DNA of 64,000 nt. Source: Aequorivita iocasae. GTDB lineage: Bacteria; Bacteroidota; Bacteroidia; Flavobacteriales; Flavobacteriaceae. Below the pieces are notes generated by a model. It had not been told where the DNA came from. It made no database searches and worked only from the letters and a program-made list of their open reading frames with translations. Positions 19,257 to 26,400 of this stretch are shown piece after piece (position 1 is the stretch's first letter; each line of letters starts with the position of its first letter). The stretch is from NCBI RefSeq assembly GCF_016757735.1, contig NZ_CP068439.1, forward strand, positions 1 to 64,000, in the 5' to 3' direction. The translations under genes were made by a program, and so were the position numbers.

Positions 19257-20224
19257 TTTTCTACAAAAGTTGAATTTGGAGTATTTTCTTCTGACAAAAC
19301 AATGGGTTCTTCCACTTTCCCAAAAAGCTTTCCACCCCAATCGCGCCATTTATAGCGCCATGCCATAATCAATAGAAAAATAGGGTAGAGAATCAAAACA
19401 GGTGCAATTACATCAAAACCGGCGGATGGTTCAGAAATATCCTTTAAAATAGAATTTGTTTTGAATACCGTCCAATCTGCCGTTACCAAAAGAGCTGTTA
19501 TTAAATTATTCCCTGCGTGGAATCCCAATGCGAGCTCCATGCCTTCGTCCATTAAGGTCATTATTCCCAAAAAGAAACCAGTACCTATGTAATATATCAT
19601 TATAACATTGCCTAGCTTTTCAACTTCGGGGTTTGCCAAATGGAGTCCTCCAAAAACTACCGAAGTAATAATCAAAGGCAGCCATTTGTTTTTTGCTAAA
19701 ACACCAATGCCTTGCATTAAATAACCGCGGAACAGGTATTCCTCAAAACTGGTCTGCAACGGGATCATAATTACCGCAATTGCTGCAAGAATTAAAAATG
19801 GCACCAAATCAAACTGTAAAACATAACCTTCTGGATTACTATAAAAGTCTAATATAGTAACCACCAAAGTGGTAACCGTTATAAGTCCAAATCCAAAAAG
19901 CACACGGCCCCAATCGGTTTTTTTTCTTGAAGTTGTAAGCGTAACAAAAGGCTGTTTATGAAAAAATTTTACTACAAGATACACTGCCAATAAACCCACG
20001 GCAAAGCTGAGCAGCATTAAAAAAAGCGTGAGATTTGAACTGAGGGTTGTAAGAATTTCATTTTCGTCTATGGAATATACACTTTCACCATCAGACACTT
20101 TCTTAAACATTACGGCAATCAACAATGGAATGGATCCTAACTGACTGGCGACAAAAATAATTATGAAACCTACCAAATAGCGCCACCATTCGTGCAGGGA
20201 TTTAAAGGCTTGTTGAATATACAT
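19253..20224 (-). CDS. CPBP-family intramembrane metalloprotease
   Basis: A 323-residue multi-pass membrane protein of the CAAX-protease/bacteriocin-processing (CPBP, ABI) family. The three diagnostic motifs are intact: EExxxR as EEYLFRG (about 161-167), FxxxH as FGGLH (about 194-198), and HxxxN as HAGNN (about 235-239). About eight hydrophobic segments are present. Its substrate is unknown. It sits between menC and menE and overlaps menE by four bases, so it is made together with menaquinone enzymes; whether it has a role in quinone biology is not shown by the sequence. Confidence 0.9.
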   Translation of the reverse strand: MYIQQAFKSLHEWWRYLVGFIIIFVASQLGSIPLLIAVMFKKVSDGESVYSIDENEILTTLSSNLTLFLMLLSFAVGLLAVYLVVKFFHKQPFVTLTTSRKKTDWGRVLFGFGLITVTTLVVTILDFYSNPEGYVLQFDLVPFLILAAIAVIMIPLQTSFEEYLFRGYLMQGIGVLAKNKWLPLIITSVVFGGLHLANPEVEKLGNVIMIYYIGTGFFLGIMTLMDEGMELALGFHAGNNLITALLVTADWTVFKTNSILKDISEPSAGFDVIAPVLILYPIFLLIMAWRYKWRDWGGKLFGKVEEPIVLSEENTPNSTFVEK

Positions 20225-20268
20225 ATTGAGGCTTTAGATTTAAGATATGAGATATAAATTTTTGACTT

Positions 20269-21309
20269 TTAAAATTGAAAAATCCAATCGGCGGATGGAT
20301 TGTAATGCAATGCTCCATCTTTAACTTCCAGTGGACTGTCAATATTATTTGTGTAAAGGCTGCCCGTGCCCAAACCTTGTGGCAATTTACTGTTTTTTGT
20401 GAAGGTATATTGTGAAATTGCGTTTAAACCCACATTGCTTTCCAAGGCCGAAGTAATCCACCAGCCAATATTTTGTTTTTCAGCTAGGTTAATCCACGTA
20501 TCGCTTCCACAAAAACCGCCTATTAATGAGGGTTTTAAAATTATAAATTGTGGTTTTATGGTGTCCAAGAGTTTGTTCTTTTCTTCTTCGGAAAAAATAC
20601 CGATGAGTTCCTCGTCCAATGCAATAGGTAACGGAGTTTCTTCACAAAGGCGTGCCATTTCCTGCCATTGCCCTTGTTTTATGGGTTGCTCTATGGAGTG
20701 CAATTGCAAATCTGAAAGTATTTTTAGCTTTTCCAAAGCCTCTGAGGATGAAAAAGCACCGTTGGCATCCACCCGCAATTCCACTTCGGAAGCGGAAAAT
20801 TCCTTCCGTATTGATTTTAAAAGCTCCAATTCGGTTTTGAAATCAATGGCGCCAATCTTCATTTTGATACACGTGAAACCTCCTTTCAATTTTTCTGAAA
20901 TCTGCTGTTTCATAAAAATTTTATCCCCCATCCAAACCAAACCGTTTATGGGGATTGCAGCTTCACCATGCGTAAATTCCGAAGGAAATAATACAAAAGG
21001 ATTTTTGGAATGCAACGATTTAAAAGCAGTTTCAACCCCAAATTGTATCGACGGAAATTCCTCCAAGGCTTCGTATAAATCTGCTTCACTCACCCCCAAT
21101 TCTATGTTTTCACATACGCCTGCAAGCTCTTCTTCGTAATCGGGACGGTCGTCAATACTCAAACCGCGAAGCAAACCGCACTCGCCCACGCCAAAACCAT
21201 CGTCAGTTTTCAGAATAAGAAAATAGGTTTCTTTGGTACTCAATACGCCACGGGAAGTGCCGCTGGGACGTTTGAAGTTTAGGTCGTGCTTTTGAAAAGT
21301 GGCTATCAA
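20269..21309 (-). CDS. menC: o-Succinylbenzoate synthase (MenC, enolase superfamily)
   Basis: A 346-residue enolase-superfamily enzyme that dehydrates SHCHC to o-succinylbenzoate in menaquinone synthesis. The catalytic and metal-binding residues are visible in order: KMKIG (KxK lysines), VDANGA, EQPIK, LDEELIG and ILKPSLIGG with the opposing lysine. The length is usual. Operon neighbours menE, menA and the MBL hydrolase fix the assignment as menC and not a dipeptide epimerase. The gene upstream in the transcription order is the four-helix-bundle insert, so menC is separated from the MBL gene by the 438-bp repeat-flanked cassette. Confidence 0.93.
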   Translation of the reverse strand: MIATFQKHDLNFKRPSGTSRGVLSTKETYFLILKTDDGFGVGECGLLRGLSIDDRPDYEEELAGVCENIELGVSEADLYEALEEFPSIQFGVETAFKSLHSKNPFVLFPSEFTHGEAAIPINGLVWMGDKIFMKQQISEKLKGGFTCIKMKIGAIDFKTELELLKSIRKEFSASEVELRVDANGAFSSSEALEKLKILSDLQLHSIEQPIKQGQWQEMARLCEETPLPIALDEELIGIFSEEEKNKLLDTIKPQFIILKPSLIGGFCGSDTWINLAEKQNIGWWITSALESNVGLNAISQYTFTKNSKLPQGLGTGSLYTNNIDSPLEVKDGALHYNPSADWIFQF

Positions 21310-21312
21310 TTT

Positions 21313-21368
21313 GGATTATTGGATTGTTAGATGGTTGGATTGTTTGATTTTTTGATGATTGGATTATT
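21313..21368. repeat. Array of seven degenerate 8-bp repeats (GGATTRTT type)
   Basis: The 56 bases split exactly into seven octamers: GGATTATT, GGATTGTT, AGATGGTT, GGATTGTT, TGATTTTT, TGATGATT, GGATTATT. The last includes the stop codon of the four-helix-bundle gene. A facing array of four octamers is at 21719-21750. Confidence 0.85.
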
Positions 21369-21714
21369 TTAGGGTGGATTTAAATTTGGAAGTCATTTTG
21401 ATAATAGCTTCTAATTTTTTAAGTAAAGGATTTAAATCTTCTTGCTTTAGAAATTTTAAATCATTTGCAATTAGCAACTGTGTTTCGATTTCGTAACAGG
21501 AGCCGATAGTTATTTCTAAAAATCTGGCAAAATCCTTATTTGATATTCTTGATGCGCCTTCTGCTATATTTGAAGGTATTGATATACTTGCTCGTCTTAA
21601 TTGACTAGTAAGTCCAAACTTTTCAGCTTCGGGAAATAAGGAAGTAATTTCATAAATATCTTTCCAAAACAATCTACTCAGTTTCCAAATTTCCAAATCC
21701 TTAAATCTGTGCAT
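21364..21714 (-). CDS. Four-helix-bundle protein (23S rRNA intervening-sequence protein family)
   Basis: A 116-residue all-helical protein with the hallmarks of the S23/four-helix-bundle family: RFKDLEIWKLSRLF near the N terminus, the central LTSQLRRASISIPSNIAEGA, then FARFLEITIGSCYEIETQLL. Relatives are encoded in intervening sequences of 23S rRNA genes and as the accessory Avd protein of diversity-generating retroelements; solitary copies such as this have no known function. There is no reverse transcriptase, variable repeat or rRNA nearby. It is flanked by inverted arrays of 8-bp repeats, which suggests it was inserted into the men operon as a unit. Confidence 0.88.
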   Translation of the reverse strand: MHRFKDLEIWKLSRLFWKDIYEITSLFPEAEKFGLTSQLRRASISIPSNIAEGASRISNKDFARFLEITIGSCYEIETQLLIANDLKFLKQEDLNPLLKKLEAIIKMTSKFKSTLK

Positions 21715-21718
21715 TTCT

Positions 21719-21750
21719 ATACATCCAAAAATCCAACCATCTAATAATCC
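21719..21750. repeat. Facing array of four degenerate 8-bp repeats
   Basis: Read on the minus strand, the 32 bases split into GGATTATT, AGATGGTT, GGATTTTT and GGATGTAT, ending 4 bases before the ATG of the four-helix-bundle gene. They match the octamers at 21313-21368 in inverted orientation. Confidence 0.8.
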
Positions 21751-21755
21751 ATAAT

Positions 21756-22436
21756 TTATAATTCTATCGACTCCCCAATTTCCAGCAACATCAAATCCTT
21801 ATTGGCATCATAAAACTTGCGTTTTGCTTCTTCGTGATCAATTTCAATGTATCCGAAAGTATCGTAATGCACTCCCAAAACTTTGTCGCACTGAACAAAA
21901 TCACTTGCAATAATTGCATCGTCAATTCCCATTGTGAAATTATCACCTATTGGGAGAATTGCTAAATCCAATTTGGTTTGCATCGGGATCAATTTCATAT
22001 CCATTGTTAGCGCGGTGTCCCCCGCTATGTAAATGTTTTTGTGTTCGCCCTCAATCACAAACCCGCCGGGTTGGCCGCCGTAACTTCCATCGGGAAAACT
22101 ACTTGTGTGGTGGGCAATGACATATTTTACTTTCCCAAATTCAAATTTCCAGCTTCCGCCGTGGTTCATTGGGTGTACTTCGATGCCCTTTTTCTCATAA
22201 TGGTTTGCAATCTCAAAATTGCTAACGATTATTGCTCCCGTATTTTTCGCAATTGCTTCCGCGTCAAGCGTATGATCCTGATGCGCATGGGTTAAAAGAA
22301 TATAATCTGCTTTTAAAGTGTTGATATCAATTTTGTCTTTTGCAAGGTCATTTCCTGAAATAAATGGGTCCACCAAAATGTGTTTTCCCTTTATTTCAAT
22401 TCCCAAAGAATTTTGTCCGTAGAATGTAATCTTCAT
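21756..22436 (-). CDS. Metal-dependent hydrolase, UPF0173-type MBL fold
   Basis: A 226-residue cytoplasmic metallo-beta-lactamase-fold protein. The metal motif is LTHAHQDHTLDAEA (about 49-62), followed by VIAHHTSSFPDGSYGG (a UPF0173 signature), YIAGDTALT and GVHYDTFGY. No signal peptide is present. The substrate of this family is unknown. It is 14 bases downstream of menA, so it is transcribed with the menaquinone genes, an arrangement I recall from other flavobacteria; a thioesterase-like role in the pathway would be speculation. Confidence 0.88.
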   Translation of the reverse strand: MKITFYGQNSLGIEIKGKHILVDPFISGNDLAKDKIDINTLKADYILLTHAHQDHTLDAEAIAKNTGAIIVSNFEIANHYEKKGIEVHPMNHGGSWKFEFGKVKYVIAHHTSSFPDGSYGGQPGGFVIEGEHKNIYIAGDTALTMDMKLIPMQTKLDLAILPIGDNFTMGIDDAIIASDFVQCDKVLGVHYDTFGYIEIDHEEAKRKFYDANKDLMLLEIGESIEL

Positions 22437-22450
22437 AATTTATTTTTTTA

Positions 22451-23386
22451 TCACATAAATATACTAAACAAGATTGCAAACAAAAAAGTGCTGAGCGCGA
22501 CCTTCTTCAGTTCGCCATCGAGTAGCATTGGCGATTTATTTTTAAAAACGGTTTTTATGTTTAAAAGGAAAGGAATAAAAGCGATTAAGTACACAAATTG
22601 AGAGGGCTCCGAATAATTGATTATAGTGTAGAGTATTGCGCAAAACATTCCGAAAAGCAATAAAAAAGCATGATATTTTTTTGCTTTACGTATTCCCAAT
22701 TTCACAACTAATGTGTTTTTCCCAGCTGCAGTATCGCTTTCAATATCGCGCATGTTGTTCAAATTAAGGACCGCTGTACTAAAACACCCTATCGCAATGG
22801 CTGGCAACAAAAGTTCCCAATATAGCTTATGGGTGAATAAATAATAACTTCCCAAAACACTTAACAATCCAAAAAACAGAAATACAAAAACATCGCCCAA
22901 GCCTGAATAGCCGTAGGCTTTTTTACCAACGGTATATTTAACCGCCGCGATGATGGAAACTATTGTTAAGTTGAAAAATATAAATGAAATGATGAAGTTT
23001 TCATTGCCAAAAGCCATAAAAATTAAAAAGGTGGCGAGAAAAAACGTTAGAACGCCCGTAATAATCATCCCAATTTTCATCTGTTTGGGTGAAATAATAC
23101 CCGAAGCTACCATGCGCTTTTCGCCCTGTCTTTTAGCATCTGTGCCGCGCACGCCATCGCCGTAATCATTGGCGAAATTTGATAAAACTTGGAAACCAAT
23201 TGTAACCAATATTGCAAGCCAGAATAAACCAGATTGCCAAACCGGCGGACATCCAAAACAACAGGACAAAGTTGATTCAAGAAGCGAATGTTGGTTTCCG
23301 AATGAAGCCCCCACAATAATTCCCGAAACCGAAAGCGGCAACGTTCGCAATCTTGCCGCAGCAACCCAAGCTTTAATTTTTGTCAT
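22451..23386 (-). CDS. menA: 1,4-dihydroxy-2-naphthoate prenyltransferase (MenA)
   Basis: A 311-residue polytopic membrane enzyme of the UbiA superfamily that attaches the polyprenyl tail to dihydroxynaphthoate. The first Asp-rich motif is NDYGDGVRGTD and the second is LNNMRDIESD, with about eight to nine hydrophobic helices. ATG 23386 (MTKIKAW) is preferred to an in-frame TTG at 23407. Oddly, the loop after the first helix (about residues 30-53) carries a segment with Cys42, Cys43 and Cys46 that I do not recall from usual MenA proteins, where the next helix follows after a short loop. It is the first gene of the men operon. Confidence 0.93.
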   Translation of the reverse strand: MTKIKAWVAAARLRTLPLSVSGIIVGASFGNQHSLLESTLSCCFGCPPVWQSGLFWLAILVTIGFQVLSNFANDYGDGVRGTDAKRQGEKRMVASGIISPKQMKIGMIITGVLTFFLATFLIFMAFGNENFIISFIFFNLTIVSIIAAVKYTVGKKAYGYSGLGDVFVFLFFGLLSVLGSYYLFTHKLYWELLLPAIAIGCFSTAVLNLNNMRDIESDTAAGKNTLVVKLGIRKAKKYHAFLLLFGMFCAILYTIINYSEPSQFVYLIAFIPFLLNIKTVFKNKSPMLLDGELKKVALSTFLFAILFSIFM

Positions 23387-23425
23387 TCTCTTTTTTTGGA
23401 AGCACAAAAATACATTTTAAAAGTA

Positions 23426-23454
23426 AAAACCGCTTCTTTAAAAGAAGCGGTTTT
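23426..23454 (-). terminator. Terminator between the 1076-residue T9SS protein and menA
   Basis: A long near-perfect palindrome: AAAACCGCTTCTTT facing AAAGAAGCGGTTTT around 23440. It lies downstream of the minus-strand gene ending at 23491 and upstream of menA; the T-run on the minus strand would stop transcription before menA. Confidence 0.85.
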
Positions 23455-23490
23455 CAAGCTTAACAATTCAACATTAAAAAAACTAAACAA

Positions 23491-26400
23491 TTATTTAACA
23501 ATCAATTTTTGTGAAATTCCTTTCGTATTTTTAACAATATAGGTCCCTGGGGCAAAAGTTGATATATTCAAGGAAACTGTTTCCTTTTGGCTGCTAACGG
23601 AACGACCCAGCATATCAAAAACTTCATAGGAATCTGGCTTACTGAAGAAAACGATATCTTTCGCAGGATTTGGGTAAATCTTAAAGGTTGTAGCGGTCAA
23701 TTCATTTTCAGGAACAGACAAAACATTATCTAATGAATAGATGCTCAAAGTAGCACTAACTTCATTTGAAAGAATAACAAGTGCTTTTCCGGTAGGACTA
23801 TCTGCTGCATCCACATACACGACACCTTCCGGACCTAAATCACCACTTTCGGGTTCACCGGGCACGGTTCCACGGCTATTTACATACTGAAGATATATTG
23901 GGTTCACTGGATCGGTAATGTTATAAACCATCATTCCTCCAATACGCTCTAAAAGTACAAAAGCATAAAATTGATCGCCTATTTGCTTCACAAGTACACC
24001 TTCAGGCTCCGGTCCTTTATTATCACTTCTGTTTTTGAAATTATTGTTATCATTGCTGGCATTAAAGATTCCACCCAAGTTTGGATCGGCTGCGGTAATT
24101 ATTTCAAAATCATTTCCGCTATCGTAAACCAAATTGCCTGTGGCAGCTTCAAAAATACTGAAGGAACGCCCGCCAAACACGTGAATTTCCTCATACAGCC
24201 CATCGTTGTTCTCGTCACCCGAAGCAGCAGTAACATTGATATCACCAAGGTTTGTCTCCAAACTTAGAATGTCAATGTTCGAAAATATGTTTGGATCCAA
24301 AATATAATCTGAATCTCCTAACTTTTTCTCTTCTTCATAACCTGAATAATCTCTGGCATCTCCTTCATTTGCAGTAACAATATAATCTACACCGTTCACT
24401 GAATAGAATGAAACTGCATCTGGCATATACAATCCTTTGATAGGCCAAGAGGCATTGAAGATAAAATCAGTTTCATCTGAAGTATCCAATGAATTTTGTG
24501 GTAGGCTGTGGTCCTTTTTTCCAAAGGAAATAATATCTGTGATTTCCAAAGCGGAAAGATCTATGATTGCATAAGCATTATTCTCTTGAAGCGTTACATA
24601 TGCCATCTGAGAATCATCGGAAACAGTTATGTACTCAGGCTCCAAATCTTGCGATACGGAAGCTCCTGGTCCAAAAATTCGAACGCCAGCTGCTTTAAGT
24701 GCTACTTCTTGCGAATCAAATGCATTGAAATTAAGCGTTGTTACATCAGCTTGTGTTATTGCACCCAAACCAGCAGTTACATCTATCACAGAAACCGAAC
24801 CCTCGGGGTCAACAGTGTAATCGTTGCTTGGTTGTCCCTCATTGGCAACCAAAAGTTTTGTTCCATCAGGTGAAAATGTAAGCATATCTGGTAAAGAACC
24901 TACCTCCAAAACCGTTGGGTTGTTTCCATCGGTATCTGCCAAAACCACAAAACCATTATCTAAAGGATCATTTGCTGATATAGCTGCAGCTACAATTCCA
25001 TTGCTAACAGCAACACTTTGTACGGAACTTCCAAATGCAGTAATATCAACTGTAGCCAAAGAAGTAATGTTTTCTGGATCTGAAAAATCCAATGCTTCGA
25101 TAGCGCCTACTGTAGTTACAAACAAACGCTGTGTTGCGGAGTCATACGCGGTGATTTCGGCAGTTCCGCCAGCATCAACCAAGTAACTCGTAAGGTAATT
25201 TACGTCTAGTTCGCTTGCATTACCAGTAGGTACTAATGTATCATCATCCAGAATATATACTGAAAATAGATTTGTATTTCCAACTATAACACTCGAAGGG
25301 TTTGTTAGCGAAAGCACGAAGAACAAATCACTTCCATCCTCTGTATTATTTATTATAGGAATAGTAACAGATTGTGAAGCCGTACTACCTGCTGCAAAAT
25401 TTAAAGTTTCCGAAGCAGCAAAAGAAAAATCAGTGCCTTCTACCGCCGTACCGCCAGCAATTAAACTTACCTCTACAGATCCATTTACTGTTGGAGCCTG
25501 CGAAACCTCTACAGTAATGGTTATAGAATTACCATCTTCAGATACTGATGCATAAGGAGTATCAAACTGTACGCTTGTTACAGTTACTGGCAATCCATTA
25601 CCGGGAGAACCAATGTTGGGCACGTCCATATTGTCCCCGCCCATATCAATTGTTTCAACGGCTCCATTGGCATTTCCTACTACACTAAAAGTGGCTAAAT
25701 CTACATCGTATGATTGTCCATCGTTTGACGACGTATCTGGATAAGTAGCTGAATCTACTGGTGAAGTAGTGTTGGGATCACCTTGCCAAATTGTAACGGC
25801 ATCGCCACCGGCACCAAGCCCAGCACCATCCGTAAATCCAACTTGCACGTCGGTTAAATCAATTACTTGGCCCCAAACATTTGTAAATGTTGTAACATCG
25901 TTTGCGTCTCCAATCAAAACAATTGCAAAGCCACCAGGCTGAATTTCAGAAATACCTTGGATAATATCAGCAGTTGTTGGATCCGCAGATTCATCATCAT
26001 AATATAAATCGCTATCTACGCCGGAAACCCAAGCTCCTGTCCCCACGTTTTCAATTTCGAACCAATCTGCAGTTAAATCTGTTCCAGCTTGACCTGAGAA
26101 TATTTCAGTTATAATTAAATCTGAAGTCGAAGTTACCGCTGGCTGAAAACTGCCCAAGGCAACGATGGTGCTTAGAGCAGGGCCACTGTTACAGGTTCCT
26201 TGACCATCCAAAACTTGGAGTGCACCAAATGTCCAATTTACAGGATCAAAATTTCCTCCATTTGCGTTGGAAAAATCATTCCTTAAATAGTAAGAATCTT
26301 CGTGTTCCCAAGCGGTGCCCGTACCGTCAACACCATCTTCACCAAAACGGTCAATCACCATACTATTATTATCAATAATTTGGAAGGCATCATCACCATT

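Follow-up and report, generated by a model that had tools for sequence, protein, structure and literature searches.

The 64-kb stretch of Aequorivita iocasae DNA analyzed here (the window) contains a gene of the S23, or four-helix-bundle, family between a metal-dependent hydrolase gene and menC, with menA as the next gene of the cluster (Table 1). These neighbors fit an earlier reading of the locus, in which the insert interrupts a men operon. The S23 product scored 131.7 bits against the Pfam profile PF05635 (cut-off, 33.8 bits) and 124.8 bits against TIGR02436 (cut-off, 24). The gene is enclosed by two tandem arrays, which we call the 5' and 3' arms. A gap of 5 nt separates the 5' arm from the end of the preceding hydrolase gene, and the 3' arm contains the S23 stop codon and ends 3 nt ahead of the menC start (21309).

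Table 1. Features of the S23 element and its neighbors in the window
Feature	Position	Strand	Basis or role
S23 / four-helix-bundle gene, 116 aa	21364..21714	-	PF05635 and TIGR02436 profile matches
5' arm, four octamers directly upstream of the S23 start codon	21719..21750	-	Sequence reading and repeat searches
3' arm, seven octamers inverted relative to the 5' arm	21313..21368	-	Sequence reading and repeat searches
Whole element (arm, S23, arm)	21313..21750	-	Inverted-repeat search and RNA fold prediction
menC (o-succinylbenzoate synthase), downstream neighbor, TTG start	20269..21309	-	
Metal-dependent hydrolase (MBL fold), upstream neighbor	21756..22436	-	Anchor of the junction survey
menA, next cluster gene	22451..23407	-	

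Read directly, the 3' arm consists of the octamers GGATTATT GGATTGTT AGATGGTT GGATTGTT TGATTTTT TGATGATT GGATTATT, with the minus-strand S23 stop codon (TTA on the plus strand, 21364-21366) inside the last of them, and the 5' arm reads GGATTATT AGATGGTT GGATTTTT GGATGTAT on the minus strand. Tandem Repeats Finder placed arrays of period 8 at 21311-21368 (78% matches) and 21723-21751 (71% matches), match rates that indicate degenerate units with exact spacing. Seven octamers facing four inverted ones, a perfect 15-bp inverted repeat between the two sides (the exact 15-mer TTAGATGGTTGGATT is common to both arms), and identical outer ends (both GGATTATT) had all been claimed in the preliminary description of this DNA and were borne out. 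An inverted-repeat search aligned 21320-21355 with 21716-21751 (83% complementary), and the transcript of 21305-21760 was predicted to fold end to end, with an MFE of -99.8 kcal/mol and a z score of -4.78 against 100 shuffles. Among ORFs of at least 60 aa, S23 was the only one between the arms, with no transposase gene. Our array detector found no arrays in 400 kb of shuffled letters of the A. iocasae genome and listed the window arrays as the sole array outside long reading frames in the 64 kb; the window arrays are therefore beyond chance.

The preliminary description had linked the gene to rRNA intervening sequences (IVS). It was right about the form, an S23 ORF in a hairpin loop with complementary ends around the insert, as the arm complementarity and the predicted fold indicate. 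However, the window element lies outside rRNA, and Rfam gave zero matches at positions 20000-23500 with E values up to 1. The element is IVS-like in build and is not an IVS by location.

We scored inverted arms by local alignment of the 250 nt upstream of a gene with the reverse complement of the 250 nt downstream, with a threshold of 28. This threshold was reached at 76/101 S23 loci of the A. iocasae genome and its relatives and by 4/359 control genes of the A. iocasae genome (0/100 among those of 90 to 200 aa). Relatives carrying the gene at this locus without octamers, or octamers equally common at random intergenic sites, had been named beforehand as grounds for abandoning the idea of a cassette; the survey instead found inverted arms at most S23 loci and hardly ever at other genes. 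Across the phylum, 35/70 S23 loci reached 28. When arms were paired between different S23 loci, 4.0% (genome and relatives) and 1.7% (phylum) did so, and the value for other co-directional spacers was 4/98. The loci that fell below 28 (25/101 and 35/70) make up a substantial share. The loci from relatives, the phylum, CPR genomes, and other genomes were the best-scoring S23 matches plus picks from the tops of the lists, which makes these samples nonrandom. Five loci were dropped before the set of 171 was fixed: L013 and L017 (two parts of one broken gene) and L037, L141, and L179 (contig ends).

The A. iocasae genome has 17 PF05635 matches, which by our reading represent 16 genes, two or more of which are broken. 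With 150-nt flanks, 12/15 of its S23 loci reached an inverted-arm score of 28, and the array detector, run at a lax threshold, found arrays beside 11/16 of the genes. The repeat unit mostly differed from one S23 site to another in this genome. Four S23 genes (L001, L012, L009, and L006) lie within about 11 kb, at about 1.755 to 1.766 Mb, and their neighbors, read by eye, resemble a phenylacetate (paa) gene cluster.

We dropped the idea that the arms are the halves of a target-site array split by the insertion, as their orientation is inverted instead of direct. Nine loci appeared to have direct arrays. Six of these (L020, L022, L026, L028, L031, and L033) had an extra inverted array right after the preceding stop codon, and L018, L037 (at a contig end), and L041 lacked so simple a fit. 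The S23 gene of L041 is flanked on both sides by a very large satellite in which inverted octamer arrays (GTTGAGGA / CTCATCGA) alternate over at least 600 and 400 bases.

The arms have a narrow range of unit lengths. Where a period was clear (lags of 5 to 12 tested), it was 7 or 8 in 163/169 cases (7 in 129 and 8 in 34), and 103 further arms had no clear period. A second method gave the same picture of array periods, with 54 arrays of period 7, 35 of 8, 34 of 14, 2 each of 6 and 15, and 1 of 9. The S23 arms are therefore intergenic tandem 7-nt arrays in a wider sense that takes in units of 7 or 8, the window unit being 8. Polarity was also constant, in that the 5' arm was the G-richer arm in 251/272 cases and the C-richer arm in 20, with one tie. 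The small inserted element with array ends that had been proposed gained support in its core idea, but the octamer did not hold as a fixed boundary, as each S23 family bears its own 7- or 8-nt unit.

Among arm mismatches, read as sense RNA, we found no excess of G:U over A:C (388 versus 476 overall), an excess that selection for RNA pairing should produce. Such selection was therefore undetected, and we gave up the idea that RNA covariation maintains the likeness of the arms. Mismatches in CPR arms leaned to G:U (41 versus 24), and those in ten other genomes were even (46 versus 44). The mismatch, period, and polarity counts used a looser mismatch penalty than the arm-score tests, which makes the arm numbers of the two not comparable; L225 and L285 were removed from them, and the flanks in these counts and in the CPR arm test take in 12 or 9 nt of the gene.

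The same architecture was found well outside the genus. Of the named loci, which came from the best 80 matches, 45/78 reached 28 (versus 2.6% for between-locus pairings); L293, at a contig edge, was left out, and L225 and L285 were already in the genus set. Ten non-Bacteroidota genomes, by record name Verrucomicrobiia, Sedimentisphaerales, Clostridia, Betaproteobacteria, Gracilibacteria, Geothrix, Ignavibacteriae, Chlorobiota, Anaerolineales, and Methanophagales, had 19/29 loci at or above 28 (versus 2.1%), with at least one in each genome. Nine of these 29 loci repeat the named-loci set, and without them 13/20 reached 28; L420 (contig edge) was excluded. In CPR genomes, the phylum of the Gracilibacteria genome, 21/29 loci reached 28 (versus 1.1%), and on cyanobacterial plasmids, 9/14 did (versus 7.7%), with 15 of 23 plasmid matches fetched and L455, which has no annotated gene, excluded. 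Several records in these sets are metagenome assemblies. As in the window, no rRNA was found at the 20/29 CPR loci scanned; at the named-loci and ten-genome sites, the rRNA check consisted of a few rRNA oligonucleotides only. S23 matches were present in 212/296 sampled genomes of the A. iocasae phylum and in 78/145 CPR genomes.

In cyanobacteria, the S23 arms consist of heptanucleotide units, for example GGGAGTA, GGGAACA, and GGGTGTA, which we take to be of the classic cyanobacterial repeat type. Heptamer repeats are best known from cyanobacteria, and 21/23 of the plasmid records matching S23 were cyanobacterial. At three cyanobacterial plasmid loci (L445, L447, and L450), the S23 gene sits inside a CRISPR operon, twice as cas6-S23-cas4 and once as cas10-S23-cmr3. 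In Flavobacterium columnare, a four helix bundle protein encoded between guanylate kinase and nicotinate mononucleotide adenylyltransferase is tabulated as a phage element (PMC5524665, Table 5); it looks like another S23 gene at an operon junction.

Both neighboring frames were co-directional with S23 in 149/171 loci, and S23 was antisense between two such frames in 5, with neighbors defined not by annotation but by the longest open frames that lie within 450 nt. Counted by site cluster, 62/84 were in sense and 5/84 antisense, with some sites counted more than once among the 84 clusters. Since 98/139 A. iocasae spacers of 60 to 250 bp are co-directional, random insertion would be expected to place about a third of copies in sense. 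In seven S23 ortholog clusters, median dN/dS values were 0.05 to 0.20, with dS often above 1 and a few pairs saturated. Judged by these ratios, the S23 protein is conserved by purifying selection, and the sense bias in a co-directional context indicates that it is most likely made from host operons.

We examined the menC-hydrolase junction in 28 genomes of the genus. Five carry S23 (one internally deleted), six have inverted-array hairpins without an ORF, two have another gene, and 15 have none of these. In the six hairpins without an ORF, the unit differs from that of the S23 element, and scores of 27 to 38 were reached by 0/100 shuffles. The spacers of the 15 junctions that have neither S23 nor an array hairpin are unrelated in sequence, and their number indicates that a hairpin is dispensable at this site. 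The clean empty site that the preliminary description had proposed to look for here was absent in simple form among the 28 genomes. In two of them (L074 and L082, from G027 and G020), the place of S23 is taken by another gene, whose product looks by eye to be secreted or lipoprotein-like; an AAATTCC-type array lies to its left and an S23-type AATCCAAC array to its right. This right array is like the one in the S23 element, which would fit a loss of S23 with retention of one arm.

The fadB-fadA junction was matched in 27/28 genomes of the genus. It holds S23 families with different units, A in six genomes, B in three, and C in four (with a changed unit in G025); the other states are one broken S23 gene, nine array hairpins without an ORF, and four GC-rich palindromes. 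We sorted these states by eye and tested shuffles separately. The palindrome, GCCCCTCCC...GGGGAGG, has no array and fills the junction in four Aequorivita genomes (L306, L312, L313, and L318). All 13 fadB-fadA junctions without an S23 gene or remnant contain an inverted repeat, of several unrelated sequences; 0 or 1 of 200 shuffles reached the score for 12 of the 13, and 9 did so for the remaining one. There was no clean empty site at either junction, the S23-free spacers being unrelated in sequence. Because the insert fills the spacer from stop to start codon and the spacers of S23-free relatives are unrelated, a target-site duplication was not readable.

We compared arms and proteins in pairs among the 171 loci. 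For S23 pairs without a shared neighbor, the frequency of arm matches between loci was 51% (95 pairs) at 65 to 75% S23 identity, 12% (191 pairs) at 55 to 65%, and 1 to 4% below 55%. For pairs at the same junction, arms matched in 3% of 89 pairs at 35 to 45% identity, 34% of 38 pairs at 55 to 65%, 28% of 32 pairs at 65 to 75%, and 91% of 113 pairs above 75%. By these comparisons, arm likeness appears to track S23 protein identity more than site. The match rate of 28% at the same junction shows that arms also change in place. Site clusters gave like arms in 9/19 comparisons at 65% identity or more versus 48/3,939 at 25 to 55%, and these clusters overlap, in that four of them represent a single junction and another three the junction beside fadB-fadA in the same operon. 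After we merged clusters of one site, like arms were present in 4/11 site pairs, so joint travel of arms and gene rests on few independent events. One of the four independent pairs consists of neighboring junctions of a single fad operon, and another involves L041, whose satellite-array flanks make its site not comparable. The closest copies at sites without shared neighbors have 80% protein identity, and at that distance a recent move was not seen.

We give even chances to the reading that 5' array, S23 gene, and inverted 3' array make up one slowly mobile, IVS-like element residing in mRNAs. Arms plus gene very probably form one unit, and this unit has probably moved between junctions; we lowered both estimates slightly once merging had left four independent cases. 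The element would lie between consecutive operon genes, after the stop codon of the first and before the start codon of the second, and nearly always in the sense orientation. The operon transcript would include it, and the fold would put the S23 gene in a loop, as in the IVS of 23S rRNA. Arms and gene would have spread jointly and slowly among operon junctions. The S23 protein would act on its own arms, with one 7- to 8-nt unit per contact, which would tie the arm unit to the protein family. Cleavage of the hairpin by RNase III, which has been reported for rRNA IVS, would allow insertions between genes to be tolerated. Since there was no overall G:U excess, we take the arm-protein link as the core of this mechanism. 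That S23 recognizes its own arms is nevertheless a tentative proposal, slightly more doubtful than not, and we hold the idea that RNA hairpin processing is central with the same reserve.

What can be read from the DNA itself is the architecture, its breadth, the bias to sense orientation in operons, the like arms at different sites in a few cases, and the purifying selection. We counted the array hairpins without an ORF at orthologous sites in favor of an IVS-like element, as IVS without an ORF occur in rRNA. Against it stand the loci below 28, the lack of a G:U excess, of a transposase, of a readable target duplication, and of a recent move, the change of arms in place, the existence of arrays without S23, and, in four genomes, fadB-fadA palindromes without arrays.

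The arms may instead be DNA-level ends. Iteron-like binding sites occur at the ends of Tn7-type elements, and the arms could be such sites for S23, with movement by a DNA route through a host or borrowed enzyme and RNA folding incidental. We think this unlikely. It would agree with the like arms that accompany like S23 proteins at different sites, with the missing overall G:U bias, and with the inverted orientation and constant polarity at both ends. However, a transposase ORF is missing between the arms, a target duplication is not readable, and the 149/171 copies in sense must then reflect only the survival of expressed copies. It is also conceivable, but quite improbable, that the hairpins belonged to the host first, as fast-changing palindromic junction spacers with a role in mRNA stability or processing, and that S23 settles in their loops. 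The inverted repeats in 13/13 S23-free fadB-fadA junctions, which few shuffles reach, and the six S23-free menC-hydrolase array hairpins are as this account predicts. The excess is modest, though, with 2/13 fadB-fadA hairpins reaching 28 versus 4/98 other spacers; arm likeness goes with the S23 protein at different sites; and 15/28 menC-hydrolase junctions do without S23 or an array hairpin. Ordinary slippage, by which 7- to 8-nt repeats arise in any noncoding DNA and S23 flanks are simply long, is highly improbable. The S23-distant arrays of A. iocasae described below would be in keeping with it, but slippage would not yield inverted matching units on both sides, constant polarity, or lengths narrowly at 7 and 8, and such arrays were absent from 780 kb of five S23-free genomes.

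Arrays are not exclusive to S23, an idea that we rejected. The A. iocasae genome has 13 further arrays outside long frames and distant from S23 in 464 kb, at eight places by our count; three of the 13 arrays are copies within one triplication. In L060 (16880-17340), three tandem copies of a unit of about 168 bp that holds an octamer array (GGATAGTTGGATGGTT...) lie behind a metallopeptidase-like gene. In ten S23-bearing genomes, there were 21 period-7/8 arrays away from S23 in 1200 kb (8 in 800 kb when A. iocasae is set aside, with none in three of the nine genomes), versus 0 in 780 kb of five S23-free genomes; this sample is small, has clade confounded with S23 content, and omits L336, a 4,850-base piece of G102. 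The unit lengths (163/169), this array density (21 versus 0), and the cyanobacterial plasmid records (21/23) led us to consider that S23 proteins, which would bind or copy nucleic acid in steps of 7 to 8 nt, themselves cause 7/8-nt arrays. S23 would then create and homogenize tandem arrays, at its own ends first and elsewhere in the genome later. We regard this as unlikely, although it deserves mention because, if true, the heptamer repeats known from cyanobacteria, Xanthomonas, and Bacteroidota would all go back to a single protein family.

To our knowledge, no function has been established for the S23 family outside rRNA IVS, and the literature that we consulted calls the family uncharacterized. 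The slowly mobile, IVS-like element proposed here has its closest counterpart in 23S rRNA IVS such as that of Coxiella burnetii, in which an S23-family ORF is described in the loop of a hairpin with complementary ends, RNase III cuts the IVS, and a mobile or selfish element is likewise suspected (PMC4990558). The present elements differ in lying between protein genes and possibly in having arms that are degenerate 7- to 8-nt tandem arrays, with a unit that differs by family. The S23 protein is also conserved by selection here, as judged above, whereas the C. burnetii ORF is reported to be decaying and apparently not made in vivo (PMC4990558). The P6b stem of the Nostoc trnL intron is similar in having 7-nt repeats on both sides of the stem; its units TDNGATT and NNTGAGT are described as alternatives, one repeatedly replaced by the other (PMC4476775). 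That stem lies within a group I intron, however, and the passages describing it do not mention an S23 gene (PMC4476775).

Intergenic 7-nt arrays of unexplained origin are a further likeness. TAACTGA heptamers are reported from Beggiatoaceae, cyanobacteria, and some Bacteroidetes, including Aequorivita sublithincola (PMC4679880), and GGGNATC-type heptamers are reported as enriched in Xanthomonas and Nostoc (PMC4692102). The causes proposed for them are regulator binding or polymerase slippage, and they are described mostly as direct repeats without a gene partner, unlike the inverted S23 arms (PMC4679880, PMC4692102). The term "four helix" is absent from both texts, and "S23" is absent from PMC4679880. 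S23-family proteins are present in X. campestris (PDB 2gsc, XCC0516) and on Nostoc plasmids, and five four-helix bundles assemble in the X. campestris member, according to Lin et al. 2006 (structure 2gsc). Avd of diversity-generating retroelements has a related four-helix-bundle fold, and PF05635 is reported to resemble it (2GSC versus 4DWL; PMC10053308). The window locus differs in that none of the four neighbor proteins scanned (menC, the hydrolase, menA, and a CPBP-type protein) matched a reverse transcriptase.

A link between S23 genes and short tandem arrays was not found in our searches of the open-access PMC literature. S23 in IVS and heptamer arrays are each already known, and their union in one element outside rRNA is apparently new. 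A tie to recurrent inverted 7/8-nt arrays would give the S23 family a context and would link rRNA IVS to insertions in mRNAs. It would also point to a testable cause of intergenic heptamer repeats, which the papers describing them leave unexplained (PMC4679880, PMC4692102). Our results suggest that gene and repeats spread together, which may help to explain the heptamer repeats of some bacterial genomes.
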